NCBI GenBank assembly: GCA_030650195.1
Contig: JAUSEP010000037.1
Coordinates: 1-34,004, forward strand
Direction of reading: 5' to 3'
Origin: Candidatus Berkelbacteria bacterium
GTDB lineage: Bacteria; Patescibacteriota; UBA1384; 2-12-FULL-50-11
Length of the DNA: 34,004 nt
The notes below the pieces were generated by a model, which made no database searches, was not told the origin of the DNA, and saw only the letters and a list, made by a program, of their open reading frames with translations. Shown here piece by piece: positions 5,694 through 29,993 of this stretch. A program made the position numbers and the translations under genes. Each line of letters opens with the position of its first letter. Position 1 is the stretch's first letter.

Positions 5694-6188
5694 CTACTCG
5701 GCATGAACTTTTTGTGTGAGCGAGTCACCCGGGATAAGACCGAGTCGGATTGCAGTACGGACAGCTTGGATACGGTTCATCGTCTGAAGCTTGTCGTTAA
5801 TGCTGCCCAGGTGGAAGCTCACGGTGCCGTCTTTGACCCCAAATACCTCTGCCACCTGCTTGTTCCCAAGCCCACGAGCTACAAGTTTAAGGACTTCTTT
5901 CTCGCGTTTCGTTAAGCGCGGTTCGCGAGAACCGGCAAGGTAGTCAGTCCTCTCCGGCAACACGATTATTCCAAGGCTAATAGCCTTGTTACACGCGTCG
6001 AGCCTACCATGAGCGCCCAACTTGACATAGGTGGCATTGGCGTAGCTGTCCACTGTCCGCTTACTTATGAACAGTATGTCTGCCACCTCCGTTGACGAAC
6101 GACCCTGCCAAAACAGTGTGATAACTGCGATCTCTCGTTCTGTCAGCCGTTTCCCGAAAACTGGGAGATGCTTTTTATGCTTCCTCAC
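5694..6188 (-). CDS. Tandem LuxR-HTH protein (two GerE-type HTH domains), GTG start
   Basis: LTEREIAVITLFWQGRSSTEVADILFISKRTVDSY... and LTKREKEVLKLVARGLGNKQVAEVFGVKDGTVSFHLGSINDKLQ; upstream TTGACG-N17-TACTAT and GGAGG. Confidence 0.85.
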   Translation of the reverse strand: MRKHKKHLPVFGKRLTEREIAVITLFWQGRSSTEVADILFISKRTVDSYANATYVKLGAHGRLDACNKAISLGIIVLPERTDYLAGSREPRLTKREKEVLKLVARGLGNKQVAEVFGVKDGTVSFHLGSINDKLQTMNRIQAVRTAIRLGLIPGDSLTQKVHAE

Positions 6189-6292: not shown

Positions 6293-6322
6293 TTGACTTG
6301 TTCGGTTTTTGTTCGCTATTGT
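6293..6322 (+). promoter_or_regulatory. Candidate SOS promoter/LexA operator: TTGACT-GTTCGGTTTTTGTTC-TATTGT
   Basis: GTTC-N7-GTTC (6300-6314) between -35 (6293-6298) and -10 (6317-6322); same geometry upstream of lexA. Confidence 0.75.
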
Positions 6323-6329
6323 AAAAGCA

Positions 6330-6593
6330 ATGGGGGAAGTACGAGAGCTCAAGGAAGAAGTGGGGGAACGGGTTAAGGTTTTAGCTAGCTTTGCTGGTTT
6401 TAAAATTACAATTCATTTCTTTAGTTGGCGAGGCCGAACCTACAAGGTAGATTCCATGAATCTGTTCCACATCGAAAAAGACGCCGAGCATCAAATCTAT
6501 AATTTTGCCGTTAGTGCTCTTGGTAATACTTACCAGCTAACCTTTGACCCCGTTACGCTCGAGTGGCAATTAAAAGACGTCTTAGCCTTATGA
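6330..6593 (+). CDS. Small protein resembling DUF6504 (Y-family polymerase-associated)
   Basis: ATG at 6330 is 7 nt after the -10; FFSWRGRTYKVDSMNLFHIEKD...YQLTFDPVTLEWQLKDVL pattern; stop overlaps dinB start (ATGA). Confidence 0.6.
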   Translation: MGEVRELKEEVGERVKVLASFAGFKITIHFFSWRGRTYKVDSMNLFHIEKDAEHQIYNFAVSALGNTYQLTFDPVTLEWQLKDVLAL

Positions 6594-7849
6594 GAAAGAT
6601 TCTTCATATAGATATGAATTCTTACTTTGCTACTCTTGAGCAGCAAGCCCATCCTAATTTACGTGGCAAACCGATCGGTGTGGCTGGTAAGGGAAAAGGA
6701 GAGCGAACGGTTGTTTGTGGTGCTTCGATAGAAGCAAAAAAGTTTGGTTTAAAATCTGGGATGTCTACTTGGGAGGCTCTACGCCTTTGTCCGCAACTTA
6801 TTATTATCCCTGCGACTTATGACCGTTACAGCTTTACTTCTAAGCGTATTTTTGATCTACTAGAGCGTTTTGGGCCTAAGGTAGATGTTTTTTCGATAGA
6901 TGAAGCTTTTTTAGATTTAGGAACGGATATCTCCTGGGAAGAGGCGGGAAACTTAGGTATTAAGATTAAACAATTAATCCGGACTGAGATAGGGGAGTGG
7001 GTAAGCTCTTCCGTTGGTATCTCCTACGGTCGGGTATTAGCAAAGCTAGCCTCAGAGATGCAAAAACCAGATGGTTTAACAGTTATTAGACCGGAAGACT
7101 TTGCTCGTATTGCCGCAATTATGCCGATAGAAGAATTGTGTGGAATCGGTTTCCGTTTACGACCGCGTTTAAACAGAATGGGCATTAATACTATCGCTGA
7201 GATGGGACGGATGCCAAGAGATATGCTAATAACTGTTTTTGGCTTACATACTGGTTCCTGGTTGCATGATATCGGTAACGGTATAGACAACAATATTTTG
7301 CATTCTTGGCGAGATCTACCTCAGGAAAAATCTATAGGGCATTCTTACACCCTACCGCATAATATAAGTAACCTAAGTGACGTTAAGAAAGTTTTGCTTC
7401 TACTCTCTGAACGAGTTGGTGTTCGGCTACGAGCCAAGCGTTTGGTTGGTAAAACAATTTCAACATATCTTCGTTTTGAAGATGGATCCGGTTGGGGAGA
7501 GCGCCACACCCAAAAAGAGTATCTACTGGACGGTTACCAAATCTACCGAGCCGGAGAACGGCTCTTAAACGGCGCGAGCGTGTTAAAACCAGTTCGACTG
7601 GTAGCAATTACCATTAGTGATCTTGTAAGTCAGTACGAGGCAACTTCACCGTTGTTTGAGGCGACCCAGGCTAACGAAGAACTTGCCTTGGCTGTAGATA
7701 AGATAAACAACCGTTACGGTGAGTGGGCGGTTCACCGGGGCTTAATACATAAAATACGCCAGAGGATATTCAACCTGCCGGACGGCAGGGACAAGCGGAA
7801 ATACGTCCCTGAAATCACCCATATAAATCCATTCACTAAACGAATCTAA
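6590..7849 (+). CDS. dinB: Y-family DNA polymerase (Pol IV/DinB-like)
   Basis: MRKILHIDMNSYFATLEQQAHPNLRGKPIGV, VFSIDEAFLDLG, SSSVGISYGRVLAKLASEMQKPDGLTVI. Confidence 0.92.
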   Translation: MRKILHIDMNSYFATLEQQAHPNLRGKPIGVAGKGKGERTVVCGASIEAKKFGLKSGMSTWEALRLCPQLIIIPATYDRYSFTSKRIFDLLERFGPKVDVFSIDEAFLDLGTDISWEEAGNLGIKIKQLIRTEIGEWVSSSVGISYGRVLAKLASEMQKPDGLTVIRPEDFARIAAIMPIEELCGIGFRLRPRLNRMGINTIAEMGRMPRDMLITVFGLHTGSWLHDIGNGIDNNILHSWRDLPQEKSIGHSYTLPHNISNLSDVKKVLLLLSERVGVRLRAKRLVGKTISTYLRFEDGSGWGERHTQKEYLLDGYQIYRAGERLLNGASVLKPVRLVAITISDLVSQYEATSPLFEATQANEELALAVDKINNRYGEWAVHRGLIHKIRQRIFNLPDGRDKRKYVPEITHINPFTKRI

Positions 7850-8734: not shown

Positions 8735-8764
8735 TTGACACGTTCGGTATTTGTTCGCTATCTT
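8735..8764 (+). promoter_or_regulatory. Candidate SOS promoter/LexA operator of lexA
   Basis: TTGACA 8735-8740, GTTC-N7-GTTC 8742-8756, TATCTT 8759-8764. Confidence 0.75.
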
Positions 8765-9006: not shown

Positions 9007-9606
9007 ATGCTCACCCCAAAACAAAAACAAATTTTAGAGTTTATAGATAAGTACCTAGAGGTAAACGGGTACGCTCCAAGCTATAGGGAGATAGCCGACC
9101 ACTTCGGTTTTTCGTCGGTAGCAACTGTTGCCGAACATGTAGATAATTTAAAAATTAAAGGATATCTCGCTAGCGGAGAAACTGGATATCGTTCGCTTAA
9201 GCCAATCGAAGTTGATGAGTCTAGCGCTTTCATGGGTTTCAATATCCCACTCTTCGGTGCTATCCAAGCCGGTAAACCAATCGAAGCTATCAAAACCAGC
9301 GAGTCTCTTGAGATACCACGAGACATGATGTCAAAGAATGTCTTTGCCTTAAAAGTAAAAGGGGATTCGATGATAGATGACGGTATCTTAGACGGTGACT
9401 ACGTTGTTATAGAACCGTGCAACTATCCAAAGAATGGAGATATCGTCGTAGCCTTAATAGATAAAGATAACGTTACTTTAAAGCGTTTTTATCGCGAGAA
9501 AGACCATATCCGTCTCCAACCTGCTAACAAAAAATACCAACCGATAAGAGTTAAGAAAGTTACAATTCAAGGCAAGGTTAAGGGAGTTATTAGAAAGTTT
9601 AGCTAA
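9007..9606 (+). CDS. lexA: LexA repressor (S24 autoprotease)
   Basis: N-terminal wHTH (GYAPSYREIADHFGFSSVATVAEHVDNLKIKGYL), cleavage-site-like AG (IQAGKP), GDSM Ser and VTLKRF Lys; SD aaggagg. Confidence 0.95.
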   Translation: MLTPKQKQILEFIDKYLEVNGYAPSYREIADHFGFSSVATVAEHVDNLKIKGYLASGETGYRSLKPIEVDESSAFMGFNIPLFGAIQAGKPIEAIKTSESLEIPRDMMSKNVFALKVKGDSMIDDGILDGDYVVIEPCNYPKNGDIVVALIDKDNVTLKRFYREKDHIRLQPANKKYQPIRVKKVTIQGKVKGVIRKFS

Positions 9607-24330: not shown

Positions 24331-24363
24331 ACCCGTAACTTTCCCGTACAATTCCCGTAAAAT
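24331..24363 (+). repeat. Three 11-bp direct repeats (CCCGTA iterons) upstream of RNR promoter
   Basis: ACCCGTAACTT / TCCCGTACAAT / TCCCGTAAAAT at 24331, 24342, 24353. Confidence 0.85.
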
Positions 24364-24436
24364 ATGCTCTTGACAAGACAAGGTGAGGGCATGGTACGGT
24401 AGTTTCCTACGTCTAAAAATTAAAGGAGGGTAAGTG

Positions 24437-27400
24437 ATGGCAAAAAAAGAAAAAAACGAAAGATTAAGTGAAATTGCTCTGAAGCCTGTTGAAATTTCTG
24501 CCGAACTACCCGAAAAAGATAATGTGGGGAAAAAACTTGGTCTTAAAGTTTCTCGTCGTTTCACTAAACCTGGAGAAAATGTTTTTGATACCGTCCAATG
24601 GGACAAACGAACTACGACTATAAGCGACGAAAAAGGAAATGTTATTTCTCAGATTACTGACGTAGAAGTACCAACAACATGGACTCAACTTGCAACGGAT
24701 ATTTTAGCTTACAAATATTTGCGTAAGGCCGGTGTTCCAACTAAAGAGGGGAGAGAAGTTTCGTTGAAACAAGCGGTCTATCGTATTGCTCACACCATTG
24801 CTGATTTTGGTGAAAAATTTAATTATTTTGCTACCGATGAAGACAGAGTTAACTTCGAAGAAGATTTAACCCATATCTTAGTAAACCAAAAAGCTGCTTT
24901 CAACTCTCCTGTTTGGTTTAACTGTGGTTTGTACCATCAGTATAAGATCGCTGGTTCCGGCGGTAGTTTCTACTGGGACTTCCAACAAGAAAAAGTCATA
25001 GAGACTAAGGACTCCTACCGTAACCCACAGTGTTCAGCGTGTTTTATTCTTTCGGTAGAAGATTCGCTTGACGGAATCTTCAATTTGTTAAAAACCGAGT
25101 CTCGTGTCTTTAAGTTTGGCTCTGGTACAGGCGCTAACTACTCTCGACTACGTAGCAAGTACGAACGCTTAAGTGGTGGCGGTACTTCCAGTGGCATGAT
25201 GAGCTTTTTGAAAGTGTTTGACCGTGCTGCCGATGCCGTCAAATCTGGTGGGACAACTCGTCGGGCCGCTAAAATGGTGGTCGTAGATATGTCGCACCCA
25301 GAAATAGAGGACTTCATCAACTGGAAAGTTAGAGAAGAAAAGAAAGTCTTGGCGTTGATTGAAGCTGGCTACTCGACTGATTTTAACGGTGAGGCCTACC
25401 ATACAGTTTCAGGCCAGAACTCCAATAACTCTGTTCGTATTACTGACGAGTTCATGGAAGCAGTTGCCAATGACGGTGAGTGGACAACTCGTTACGTTGG
25501 TAACGGCGAACCACACAAAACATACAAAGCTCGAGATTTAATGGATCAGGTAGCTAAGGCCGCCTGGCAGTGCGCTGACCCGGGCGTGCAGTTCGACACA
25601 ACGGTTAACAAATGGCACACCTGTCCCAATACCGACAGAATCAACGCCTCTAACCCCTGTTGTATTACTGGCGATACTTTAATTGCCGTTGCTGATGGTC
25701 GTAACGCTGTTCCAATTAAAGACTTAGTCGATACGGAAGTACCGGTCTACAGTCATAACCATCGAACCGGTAAAACCACCGTGGCGAGAATGTGGAATAT
25801 CGGGATAAAGCGACAAAACGCCCCTATTTACGAAGTCTTGCTCGATGACGGCACAACTTTCAGGGCTACTGATGACCATTTGATTATGCTTCGTGACGGT
25901 TCATATCGTATGGTTCGCGACCTCGTCGCCAAAGACTCACTGATGCCATTCCACTCCAAGGTACTCGCCCCAGCTAAAAATCGAACTAAGCGCCGCTATT
26001 TCTGGTCCGGCCAATCGTGGCTACCGCAGTATCGAGCCGTTTGGCAATACTTTAACGGTAAGCAACCAGCGGGCACACATATTCATCATCAGGACTTCAG
26101 TGCTTTAAATGACCTAATCGATAATCTACTCCTCTTATCGATGGAGGATCATCAGGCGATTCATCGAGACAGTATGCTCGGCGATAACAATCCCGCTCGA
26201 CGGCTAATGAATGACCAATGGCGAGCCAACATTGCCGAAGCGGTTCGGGGAGAGAAAAATGGTAACTTTGGACACATCCATAGCCAAGAAACACGAGAAA
26301 AAATGCATCAGCAAGCAATGCTACGTTGGTCGCAACCGGAAGAACGTCAGAAATCAAGCGAAAATGCATCAAGATGGATGGCGGCGGCCAAGGCCGAAGG
26401 ACGACGAGTGGGCCGAGTCCCAGGACAACGGTTTGAACGTTGCTGTCCGATCTGCCGACAAAATTATCTAACTGCCCGACCGGAACAAATTTTCTGCTCT
26501 GTTACATGCAAGCTAAGCCCGGAAGGAATTCAGATGTATGGCCCGAAGATTTGGGAATTTAATCGCGGCCGTCACCTCACCGAGACCCAGAAAGCTAAAT
26601 TAAGTGTTGCCCTTAAGCTCGTCAGCGACCCTATTGCTAAGGGCCGCGCCGCTAAAGTCGCTCACCGCAACCATATCCTGCGAGCAGCCAAGTTACTGAT
26701 CGACAATAACATCACGCCAGACTTAGAGGACTGGGATAATTTCGCCGAGCAAGCTCGTCGACTTGGTGCCAGTCGTGTCCCTCGTGCTAGTATTGCTAAA
26801 CAATACTTTATTAATAACAAGCAGTTCGTAGAGGCGGCAACGCTTAATAACCACAAGGTGGTATCGGTTAACTTCGCCGGTTACGAGCACGTCTACGACG
26901 GAACGGTCGACCAGCATCACAACTTCGCCATCCTGACTTCCACCACCAGCTCGTGCGTTGAAGGTACTAGTAATTACTCGGGCATTTTCATCCATAATTC
27001 AGAATATATGTTCCTAGACTCGACTTCATGTAACCTGGCTTCGATAAACTTAGTTAAATTTACCGATGACAAAGGTAACTTTGATGTTGAGGGCTACCGA
27101 CACGCTTGCAAGATTATGTTTATCGCTCAAGAAATTGAGGTTGATCTTTCTAGCTACCCAACTGAAGCTATTACTAAAAATAGTCATGAATACCGTCCGC
27201 TAGGATTAGGTTACGCCAATCTCGGTACAATGCTGATGCTTAAGGGGGTTCCTTACGACTCACCAGAAGCGCTAGCTACTGCTGGAGCGCTTAGTGCCAT
27301 TATGACTGGGCACGCCTACAAAACCTCAGCTGAGATGGCAGCTGTTAAAGGTGCTTTCGAAGGATTCGCCAAAAATAGAGCTCCAATGCTTAATGTTATG

Positions 27401-29002
27401 AAAATGCATCGTCAAGCGGCTTACGCCATTAATGAGGCAAACTGCCCGGATAACCTACTCGTTGCGGCTAGACAGGATTGGGACGAAGCAGTTGCATTAG
27501 GGGAGCAGTTCGGGTACCGCAATAGCCAGGCCACGGTAATTGCCCCGACTGGCACCATAGGGCTTCTACTTGACTGTGACACAACGGGAATTGAACCAGA
27601 TTTCGCCTTAGTTAAGTTTAAAAAGTTAGCTGGTGGTGGATCGATGAAAATTGTCAACAATGCCGTTAAACAAGCCTTAAGCAATCTTGGCTATAACCAA
27701 GACCAACAACAAGAAATTATAGATTACGCCCTTGGGGTTGGAAGATTTATCGAAACAACGCCGATCAACCGTTCTAGCCTATCCTCTAAAGGCTTAACTC
27801 CTGATGAGATAGATAGGGTTGAGAAAACCTTGGCTGCCGCTTTTGATATTAGCTTCTCCTTTAACAGAATGGTGTTAGGAGATGACGTCTTCGACCGTCT
27901 CGGTATCACTCAAGAAGAAGAGAAGCGACCAAGCTTCTCGTTACTCGGTAAATTAGGCTTTACTGAAGACGAAATCTTTAAAAGTAACTTGGTCGTCTGT
28001 GGCTCTCAAACCCTAGAAGGAGCACCGCATCTGAAAGCTGAACATCTGCCAGTCTTTGACTGTGCCAATCGTTGTGGACCAACTGGAACCCGTTTCATTG
28101 AACCGCTTGCTCATGTGCGGATGATGGCCGCCGTTCAACCGTTTATCTCTGGCGCCATCTCTAAGACCATTAACTTACCCAACGAAGCAACGCTACAGGA
28201 TGTTGAACAAGTTTATGCCGAATCTTGGAAGCTTGGTTTAAAAGCCTTAGCTCTTTACCGAGATGGCTCGAAACTGTCTCAGCCCCTAAATACTAAGAAG
28301 GATAGTGTCGAGGGCCAGACTGAAGTTGTTGAGAAAATTGTTGAGAAAGTTATTTACGCGCCTAAGCGCCGCCGTTTGCCTGACGAGCGTCGATCGATTA
28401 CCCACAAGTTTCAGATCGCTGGACACAAAGGATTCATTACCGTTGGTTTATATGAAGACGGTAAGGCGGGGGAGATCTTCGTAACGATGGCCAAACAGGG
28501 TAGCACGATCTCCGGTTTAATGGACGCTTTTGCTAAATCCGTCTCAATCGGTCTCCAGTACGGCGTTCCTTTAACAATGGTGGTTCGACAGTTTGCTAAT
28601 AGTAGATTTGAGCCGTACGGTTTTACCACAAACCCTCAAATCAGAATTGCTAAGTCCATTATTGATTATATAGCTCGTTACATTGGTATTAAGTTCCTTA
28701 GTCCAACCGAACAGGAAGAACTAGGAATCCGGGCTGACGCCGATGCTTCTAGTCTCCAAACTCAAATTGACTTTAATGAACCTGTAGTGGAACAGCCTAT
28801 TGTCAATAACGGAAGTCAAGTCGACGACCAAGCATCACCGCAATTAACACCAACCGAGGCGGAAGAGAAATCTATCACTTCGCCTAACGTCCAGGCTCAA
28901 ACAGACTCACCTGCGTGTCCTAACTGTGGCTCTATAACTTTCAAGACTGGCACGTGCTATACCTGTTTAAGCTGTGGTTCAACAACCGGCGGTTGTAGCT
29001 AG
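24437..29002 (+). CDS. nrdJ: Adenosylcobalamin-dependent (class II) ribonucleotide reductase with intein
   Basis: FNSPVWFNCGLY, FKFGSGTGANYSRLRS, NASNPC//SEYMFLDSTSCNLASINL, C-terminal CPNCGSITFKTGTCYTCLSCGSTTGGCS; SD aaaggaggg. Confidence 0.95.
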   Translation: MAKKEKNERLSEIALKPVEISAELPEKDNVGKKLGLKVSRRFTKPGENVFDTVQWDKRTTTISDEKGNVISQITDVEVPTTWTQLATDILAYKYLRKAGVPTKEGREVSLKQAVYRIAHTIADFGEKFNYFATDEDRVNFEEDLTHILVNQKAAFNSPVWFNCGLYHQYKIAGSGGSFYWDFQQEKVIETKDSYRNPQCSACFILSVEDSLDGIFNLLKTESRVFKFGSGTGANYSRLRSKYERLSGGGTSSGMMSFLKVFDRAADAVKSGGTTRRAAKMVVVDMSHPEIEDFINWKVREEKKVLALIEAGYSTDFNGEAYHTVSGQNSNNSVRITDEFMEAVANDGEWTTRYVGNGEPHKTYKARDLMDQVAKAAWQCADPGVQFDTTVNKWHTCPNTDRINASNPCCITGDTLIAVADGRNAVPIKDLVDTEVPVYSHNHRTGKTTVARMWNIGIKRQNAPIYEVLLDDGTTFRATDDHLIMLRDGSYRMVRDLVAKDSLMPFHSKVLAPAKNRTKRRYFWSGQSWLPQYRAVWQYFNGKQPAGTHIHHQDFSALNDLIDNLLLLSMEDHQAIHRDSMLGDNNPARRLMNDQWRANIAEAVRGEKNGNFGHIHSQETREKMHQQAMLRWSQPEERQKSSENASRWMAAAKAEGRRVGRVPGQRFERCCPICRQNYLTARPEQIFCSVTCKLSPEGIQMYGPKIWEFNRGRHLTETQKAKLSVALKLVSDPIAKGRAAKVAHRNHILRAAKLLIDNNITPDLEDWDNFAEQARRLGASRVPRASIAKQYFINNKQFVEAATLNNHKVVSVNFAGYEHVYDGTVDQHHNFAILTSTTSSCVEGTSNYSGIFIHNSEYMFLDSTSCNLASINLVKFTDDKGNFDVEGYRHACKIMFIAQEIEVDLSSYPTEAITKNSHEYRPLGLGYANLGTMLMLKGVPYDSPEALATAGALSAIMTGHAYKTSAEMAAVKGAFEGFAKNRAPMLNVMKMHRQAAYAINEANCPDNLLVAARQDWDEAVALGEQFGYRNSQATVIAPTGTIGLLLDCDTTGIEPDFALVKFKKLAGGGSMKIVNNAVKQALSNLGYNQDQQQEIIDYALGVGRFIETTPINRSSLSSKGLTPDEIDRVEKTLAAAFDISFSFNRMVLGDDVFDRLGITQEEEKRPSFSLLGKLGFTEDEIFKSNLVVCGSQTLEGAPHLKAEHLPVFDCANRCGPTGTRFIEPLAHVRMMAAVQPFISGAISKTINLPNEATLQDVEQVYAESWKLGLKALALYRDGSKLSQPLNTKKDSVEGQTEVVEKIVEKVIYAPKRRRLPDERRSITHKFQIAGHKGFITVGLYEDGKAGEIFVTMAKQGSTISGLMDAFAKSVSIGLQYGVPLTMVVRQFANSRFEPYGFTTNPQIRIAKSIIDYIARYIGIKFLSPTEQEELGIRADADASSLQTQIDFNEPVVEQPIVNNGSQVDDQASPQLTPTEAEEKSITSPNVQAQTDSPACPNCGSITFKTGTCYTCLSCGSTTGGCS
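25661..26998 (+). other. Intein (446 aa) with HNH-type homing endonuclease, inserted in RNR
   Basis: Starts CITGDTLIAVADGRNAVPIKDLV, block B ATDDHLI, HNH-like HIHHQDFSALNDLIDNLLLLSMEDHQ, NUMOD3-like NGNFGHIHSQETREKM, block F HVYDGTVDQHHNFAIL, ends GIFIHN/S. Confidence 0.93.
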
Positions 29003-29006
29003 AACA

Positions 29007-29429
29007 ATGGAAACAGAAGTTAAAGACTTCCTAAACAACCAACGAGTTGGCTGTTTAGCGGTGGCTCTTGAAGATGGAACACCACATACGTCTGCTGTCC
29101 ATTTCTCGTGTGATGCAGAATGTCAAAGATTATTTTTCCAAGTAGGCAAAGAGTCTAGGAAGTTCAATGCTGTAAACGAACGAGGGAAGGCGAGAGCCTC
29201 CTTTACCATTGGTTTTAGCGAAAAAGAGTGGAAAACTTTGCAGATGGATGGTGACCTTCGGCTACTACGAGTCGACGAGGACGGGCAATTCCAGAAGATC
29301 CACTACTTAAAAAATCCTGAAGCTAAACAATACCGCGGAGAAGACACGGCATACCTAGTTTTTGAGCCAATTTGGTGGCGGTTTAGCGACTTTAGTGTTG
29401 GTGATCCTCCTCGAATAATCGGATCATGA
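29007..29429 (+). CDS. Pyridoxamine 5'-phosphate oxidase-like (flavin split-barrel) protein
   Basis: VKDFLNNQRVGCLAVALEDGTPHTSAVHFSCD...LFFQVGKESRKFNAVNERGKASFTIG-like pattern. Confidence 0.75.
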   Translation: METEVKDFLNNQRVGCLAVALEDGTPHTSAVHFSCDAECQRLFFQVGKESRKFNAVNERGKARASFTIGFSEKEWKTLQMDGDLRLLRVDEDGQFQKIHYLKNPEAKQYRGEDTAYLVFEPIWWRFSDFSVGDPPRIIGS

Positions 29430-29993
29430 GTGATGCCTATCTACACTAAAAAGGGGGACAGAGGAGAGACTGGCCTACCAGGGAAGAGAAGGTTGCCCAA
29501 AACAGACGAAATCTTTGAGTGTTTAGGCGCTCTCGATCAAACCAACGCATCTATCGGAGTAGCGCTTAGCTTTATAGATCAGAAAGAGGAGAAGGAGCTA
29601 GTTAAATTTTTGGAGCGACTTCAATGTGACCTACTGTCAGTCGGCTCTACCATCGCTGCTGAATCCCCAGGATCTAGCCAACTCCTACCGATTTTCAGTC
29701 AAAGGACTCTTGAGCTAGAGCACCAGATAGACCAATGGGACGCCCAACTACCAGAGCTAAAAAACTTTATTTTACCCGGTGGTTGCCAAGCCGCGGCTGT
29801 TATACACCTCACTAGAGTTACCGTTAGGCAAGCGGAGAGAGCCTTCCATCGTCTAGATTCCATCACAGGACTGGAGCCAATTGCCGTTTTTCTCAATCGT
29901 TTATCTGACTACTTTTTTCAATGCGCTCGCTACTTAAATATGCGCGCGAATAAACCTGACATTATCTGGAAAAGTAGCGACAATATCTATTGA
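29430..29993 (+). CDS. PduO-type cob(I)alamin adenosyltransferase
   Basis: IYTKKGDRGETGLPGKRRLPKTDEIFECLGALDQTNASIGVAL ... ILPGGCQAAAVIHLTRVTVRQAERAFH ... LNRLSDYFFQCARYLN. Confidence 0.92.
   Translation: MMPIYTKKGDRGETGLPGKRRLPKTDEIFECLGALDQTNASIGVALSFIDQKEEKELVKFLERLQCDLLSVGSTIAAESPGSSQLLPIFSQRTLELEHQIDQWDAQLPELKNFILPGGCQAAAVIHLTRVTVRQAERAFHRLDSITGLEPIAVFLNRLSDYFFQCARYLNMRANKPDIIWKSSDNIY

Follow-up and report, generated by a model that had tools for sequence, protein, structure and literature searches.

The window, by which we mean the whole analysed stretch of 34,004 nucleotides of Candidatus Berkelbacteria DNA, carries nrdJ together with two genes that probably share its operon, and, about 15 kb from the repeat array that precedes nrdJ, the gene lexA (Table 1). 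The adenosyltransferase gene of this operon is recognisable 3' of nrdJ in most relatives, and the named relatives of nrdJ, with that of a same-genus genome among them (98% identical), come from Candidatus Berkelbacteria. The NrdJ of the window is 1522 aa long, of which roughly 440 residues belong to an intein that bears HNH and NUMOD3 motifs; the seven relatives have no intein, since their NrdJ measures only 1066-1084 aa.

Table 1. Genes and proposed regulatory features of the window, with coordinates counted from its first letter.
Feature	Position	Strand	Remarks
LexA box GTTCGGTTTTTGTTCG in promoter of small ORF-dinB operon	6300..6315	+	motif match
dinB-like translesion DNA polymerase, start codon uncertain	6563..7849	+	downstream of box at 6300
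LexA box GTTCGGTATTTGTTCG in lexA promoter, between TTGACA and -10	8742..8757	+	motif match
lexA, SOS repressor, proposed regulator	9007..9606	+	Ala-Gly cleavage site, Ser/Lys dyad
Proposed LexA operator of nrdJ	24332..24359	-	three TACGGG half-sites (CCCGTA on + strand), 11-bp steps
Presumed -35 of nrdJ, TTGACA	24370..24375	+	TTGAC kept 5' of nrdJ in 8/8 genomes
nrdJ, class II adenosylcobalamin-dependent ribonucleotide reductase with in-frame intein	24434..29002	+	
PNPOx-like gene	28974..29429	+	probably in nrdJ operon
PduO-type cobalamin adenosyltransferase	29430..29993	+	probably in nrdJ operon

Upstream of nrdJ, the array is made up of the units ACCCGTAACTT (24331-24341), TCCCGTACAAT (24342-24352) and TCCCGTAAAAT (24353-24363). 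A sequence-only reading of this DNA had described three CCCGTA units with exact 11-bp phasing at this place, and the window sequence bears this out. The same reading had the repeats running directly into TTGACA, which is inaccurate, as six bases (ATGCTC) separate the third 11-mer from the -35 and 10 bp lie between the end of the CCCGTA array and TTGACA; its term "iterons" is likewise the wrong word, there being no sign of a replication origin. Of the ribonucleotide reductase promoter that it placed after the repeats, the TTGACA is present, but the promoter as a whole is less certain than the repeats: a sigma-70 consensus scan with a 16-18 bp spacer gave no match, and the likeliest -10 is presumed to be the weak TACGGT at 24395-24400, at a 19-bp spacer. 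An Rfam scan of the window returned no RNA family. Allowing up to three mismatches, the triple CCCGTA pattern occurs once in the window, where shuffled sequences lead to an expectation of 0, and the genome scan for the tandem pattern that had been proposed as a check found a single exact copy in the 787-kb genome.

To follow the array across the family, we used a sample of eight genomes from six genera, about 89-95% complete, in each of which the NrdJ N-terminal query hit once. The check that had been proposed, footprinting upstream of nrdJ in relatives, recovered the repeats within this Candidatus Berkelbacteria family, where both the half-site and the 11-bp step recur: TWCGG half-sites, which read CCGWA on the opposite strand, stand as direct repeats in 11-bp steps 5' of nrdJ in seven of the eight genomes, and the eighth, G003, has only a pair with one mismatch (TTCGG, TGCGG) and no perfect pair. 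Nine TWCGG pairs at 11 bp were counted in seven genomes, a count that leaves out the close sister G001, versus 0.016 in shuffles. Three half-sites are found at nrdJ in six of the genomes: all three are perfect in four, and in the other two a single half-site deviates by one base. The half-sites lie mostly upstream of the -35, the spacing between them and TTGAC varies among the genomes, and the orientation of the motif is reversed in G003, G004 and G007; this turnover of position and orientation speaks for a protein-binding site. A comparison of G000 with G002 shows the array and the -35 retained and the flanks diverged. That the array is a functionless chance repeat might be argued from its consisting of just three short units, but with none expected in the window and with retention across six genera beside diverged flanks, this explanation is highly improbable. 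In G002 only, a DnaA-box-like sequence, TTGTGGATAA, occurs just 3' of the nrdJ -35 (L006).

A LexA protein scoring above the TIGR00498 cut-off is encoded in all eight family genomes, as is RecA. Pfam recognises wHTH and S24 domains in LexA; the AG, GDSM and TLKR motifs are conserved, with the cleavage site and the catalytic dyad intact, and the HTH is nearly identical among the eight. In all eight genomes GTTCGG-N5-GTTCG or a close variant sits between the -35 and the -10 in two promoters, that of lexA and that of a small ORF located ahead of dinB. The lexA promoter has the layout TTGAC-N2-GTTCGGTTTTTGTTCG, or a variant of it, with the -10 next (8/8), and the small-ORF promoter is built alike. 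Only two matches without mismatch exist in the window, at 8742 and 6300, and across the family every genome has more copies of the box pattern than of a reversed-pattern control. Read as its reverse complement, CGAAC-N5-CCGAAC, the box is the nrdJ motif. Between the box and dinB, the small ORF (6309-6593 in the window) is conserved in the family at about 84-97 aa with the pattern ASF...IHFF...NLFHI and matched no Pfam family; that dinB comes next was observed in the window itself and in several of the relatives. Divergent from the dinB operon, positions 5694-6188 on the reverse strand encode a protein with two LuxR-type (GerE) HTH domains, and a GerE protein adjoins the dinB-operon locus in G003 as well.

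Direct-repeat LexA boxes are already known. The LexA box of Alphaproteobacteria, GTTC-N7-GTTC (PMC8565304, PMC3323433), is, like the box described here, a direct repeat with an 11-bp period and a GTTC core, located at lexA as well as at an operon for a dinB-type polymerase. It differs in that the half-site here is the longer GTWCGG with a spacer rich in T, that nrdJ has three half-sites upstream of the -35, and that recA has no box. A 2017 study of the LexA network of Patescibacteria (Sanchez-Osuna, Barbe, Erill, Environ Microbiol 19:3465) is cited in PMC7739468 among the cases in which LexA came to bind a direct-repeat motif, a feature shared with the boxes described here.

The relation between the nrdJ sites and the LexA boxes was evaluated with a matrix trained exclusively on sixteen lexA and dinB sites, with the nrdJ sites excluded. 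This matrix identified a site upstream of nrdJ in each of the eight genomes, with p values of 0.001-0.026 each and a combined p of 1.5e-12 when the relatedness of the genomes is ignored. In genome-wide ranking of the main contig, the nrdJ upstream region came 4th of 660 in G005 and 5th of 710 in G003. The nrdJ sites of the window itself are weak by this measure (7.3 bits versus 25-29); the array is outscored by several chance matches elsewhere in the window. The array is nevertheless joined to the LexA consensus by intermediate nrdJ sites in relatives, GTTCGGATATTGTACGG in G005 and GTTCGGATTATGTTCGG in G006. These intermediates also bear on another reading, in which the array is bound by a different regulator, for instance a response regulator of the OmpR/PhoB type, that uses 7-bp sites in tandem separated by 4 bp, and the likeness to the LexA box is coincidental. 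A direct-repeat period of 11 bp beside the -35 is usual for OmpR/PhoB-type regulators; the array shares this period and position along with the 7-bp direct repeats, and its half-sites in the window genome are TACGGG, not GTTCGG. Such a regulator is nonetheless improbable, given that bridging sites connect the array with the LexA consensus, that the half-site, unlike those of OmpR/PhoB-type arrays, agrees with the LexA boxes present in the genomes that carry the array, and that the triple pattern has almost no further copy per genome. Judged from these sequence comparisons, the nrdJ array is most likely an operator for LexA of the direct-repeat type.

NrdR is a widespread regulator whose ATP-cone senses nucleotides and adjusts the transcription of reductase genes. 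The sequence-only reading took the helical phasing as a hint of cooperative binding by a regulator on one DNA face and left that regulator unnamed; its suggestion that nrdJ is under a regulator other than NrdR agrees with our searches of the family: an NrdR model found no gene in any of the eight genomes, and the best NrdR-box matches 5' of nrdJ carry 4-7 mismatches. The same model matches 29 of 55 genomes of the class and 9 of 14 control genomes, and a mere assembly gap in all eight genomes is an unlikely explanation for the absence. The array could still be imagined as an unusual NrdR operator, as its target, a ribonucleotide reductase gene, is the one usual for NrdR; the lack of both the protein and any close box match makes this scarcely credible. 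A close NrdJ occurs in nine members of the class beyond the family; every one of them has NrdR, and in eight nrdR is directly upstream of nrdJ. Since the contrast between 0/8 and 9/9 reflects one or a few evolutionary events, we assign no p-value to it. The NrdR regulon, with paired NrdR boxes 5' of ribonucleotide reductase genes (PMC4409342), shares its target gene with the system described here and is seen in sister families as nrdR-nrdJ loci, several of which have NrdR boxes paired at a distance of about 29-33 bp, whereas the Candidatus Berkelbacteria family has neither detectable NrdR nor NrdR boxes. Near nrdJ in class members outside the family we found no LexA box; an 11-bit site at L191 was discarded as an nrdJ LexA box because it lies past the start codon.

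Within 300 bp 5' of nrdR, a LexA-type box is absent from six of the seven regions examined. The exception is G009 (family f2), where a LexA-type box, TTCGGATTATGTTCGG, stands beside NrdR boxes 5' of nrdR-nrdJ; a pair of this kind has a chance of about 0.002 of arising in 300 bp, a value not adjusted for the seven regions. In another member of family f2, G008, the LexA is 59% identical to that of the window and is encoded about 10 kb from nrdJ, and the lexA promoter has a GTTCGG half-site with a poor partner. The one genome G009 suggests that dual control by NrdR and LexA may have come first, with NrdR lost later, and the dual-control stage may still be visible in family f2. From the sequences compared, LexA appears to have replaced NrdR in the control of nrdJ. 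We give roughly even odds to the full scenario, in which LexA replaced NrdR on the only NrdJ found, by way of a dual-control stage and an operator of three direct half-sites, so tying dNTP supply to DNA damage and not to nucleotide sensing.

On the reading of the array as a LexA operator, the LexA of the family would recognise GTWCGG half-sites as direct repeats 11 bp, or one helical turn, apart. In undamaged cells, LexA beside the nrdJ -35 would lower transcription of the nrdJ-adenosyltransferase operon. Upon DNA damage, RecA filaments would trigger self-cleavage of LexA, nrdJ would be derepressed along with lexA and dinB, and more dNTP would become available for repair and translesion synthesis. 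We infer occupancy of the array by LexA from its sequence, and repression is the presumed effect at this position. LexA could instead activate nrdJ from the position of the array upstream of the presumed -35; the array precedes TTGACA in the window genome and likewise in G002 and G001, and an alphaproteobacterial LexA is reportedly able to activate transcription. We consider activation unlikely, as the boxes at lexA and dinB overlap the core promoter, and the differences in site position and orientation between genera are better suited to repression. For repression by LexA, the weak match and the location of the array upstream of the -35 fit modulation of an essential gene and not its shut-off; the weaker sites outside the core promoter would accordingly tune nrdJ. 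The number of half-sites also differs, with two at lexA and dinB versus three at nrdJ. Both the three-half-site operator and the change of regulator look new. If true, they would represent a clean case of a core gene changing its regulator, in which NrdR was dropped and a B12-dependent reductase and its adenosyltransferase came under LexA, and this in bacteria with tiny genomes, about whose gene regulation hardly anything is known.

The analysis also provides a first list of candidate SOS targets for the Candidatus Berkelbacteria family. The recA promoters of the family have no convincing LexA box; one site in G004 was rejected, as it lies 233 bp upstream and inside an ORF. Matches within a YkuD gene in several genomes were likewise set aside, being in coding sequence and probably due to chance. 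In G003, uvrA ranks just above nrdJ, and yebC has a box. LexA-like boxes occur near Bro-N domain genes, possibly DinD-like, at L148 (G002) and L175 (G001). In addition, G003 encodes a second LexA-like protein (L111, G003:C1:1627), fused in one 527-aa frame to a partner that reads like an adenine DNA methyltransferase with a DPPY motif, and the promoter of this gene contains a GTTC half-site.
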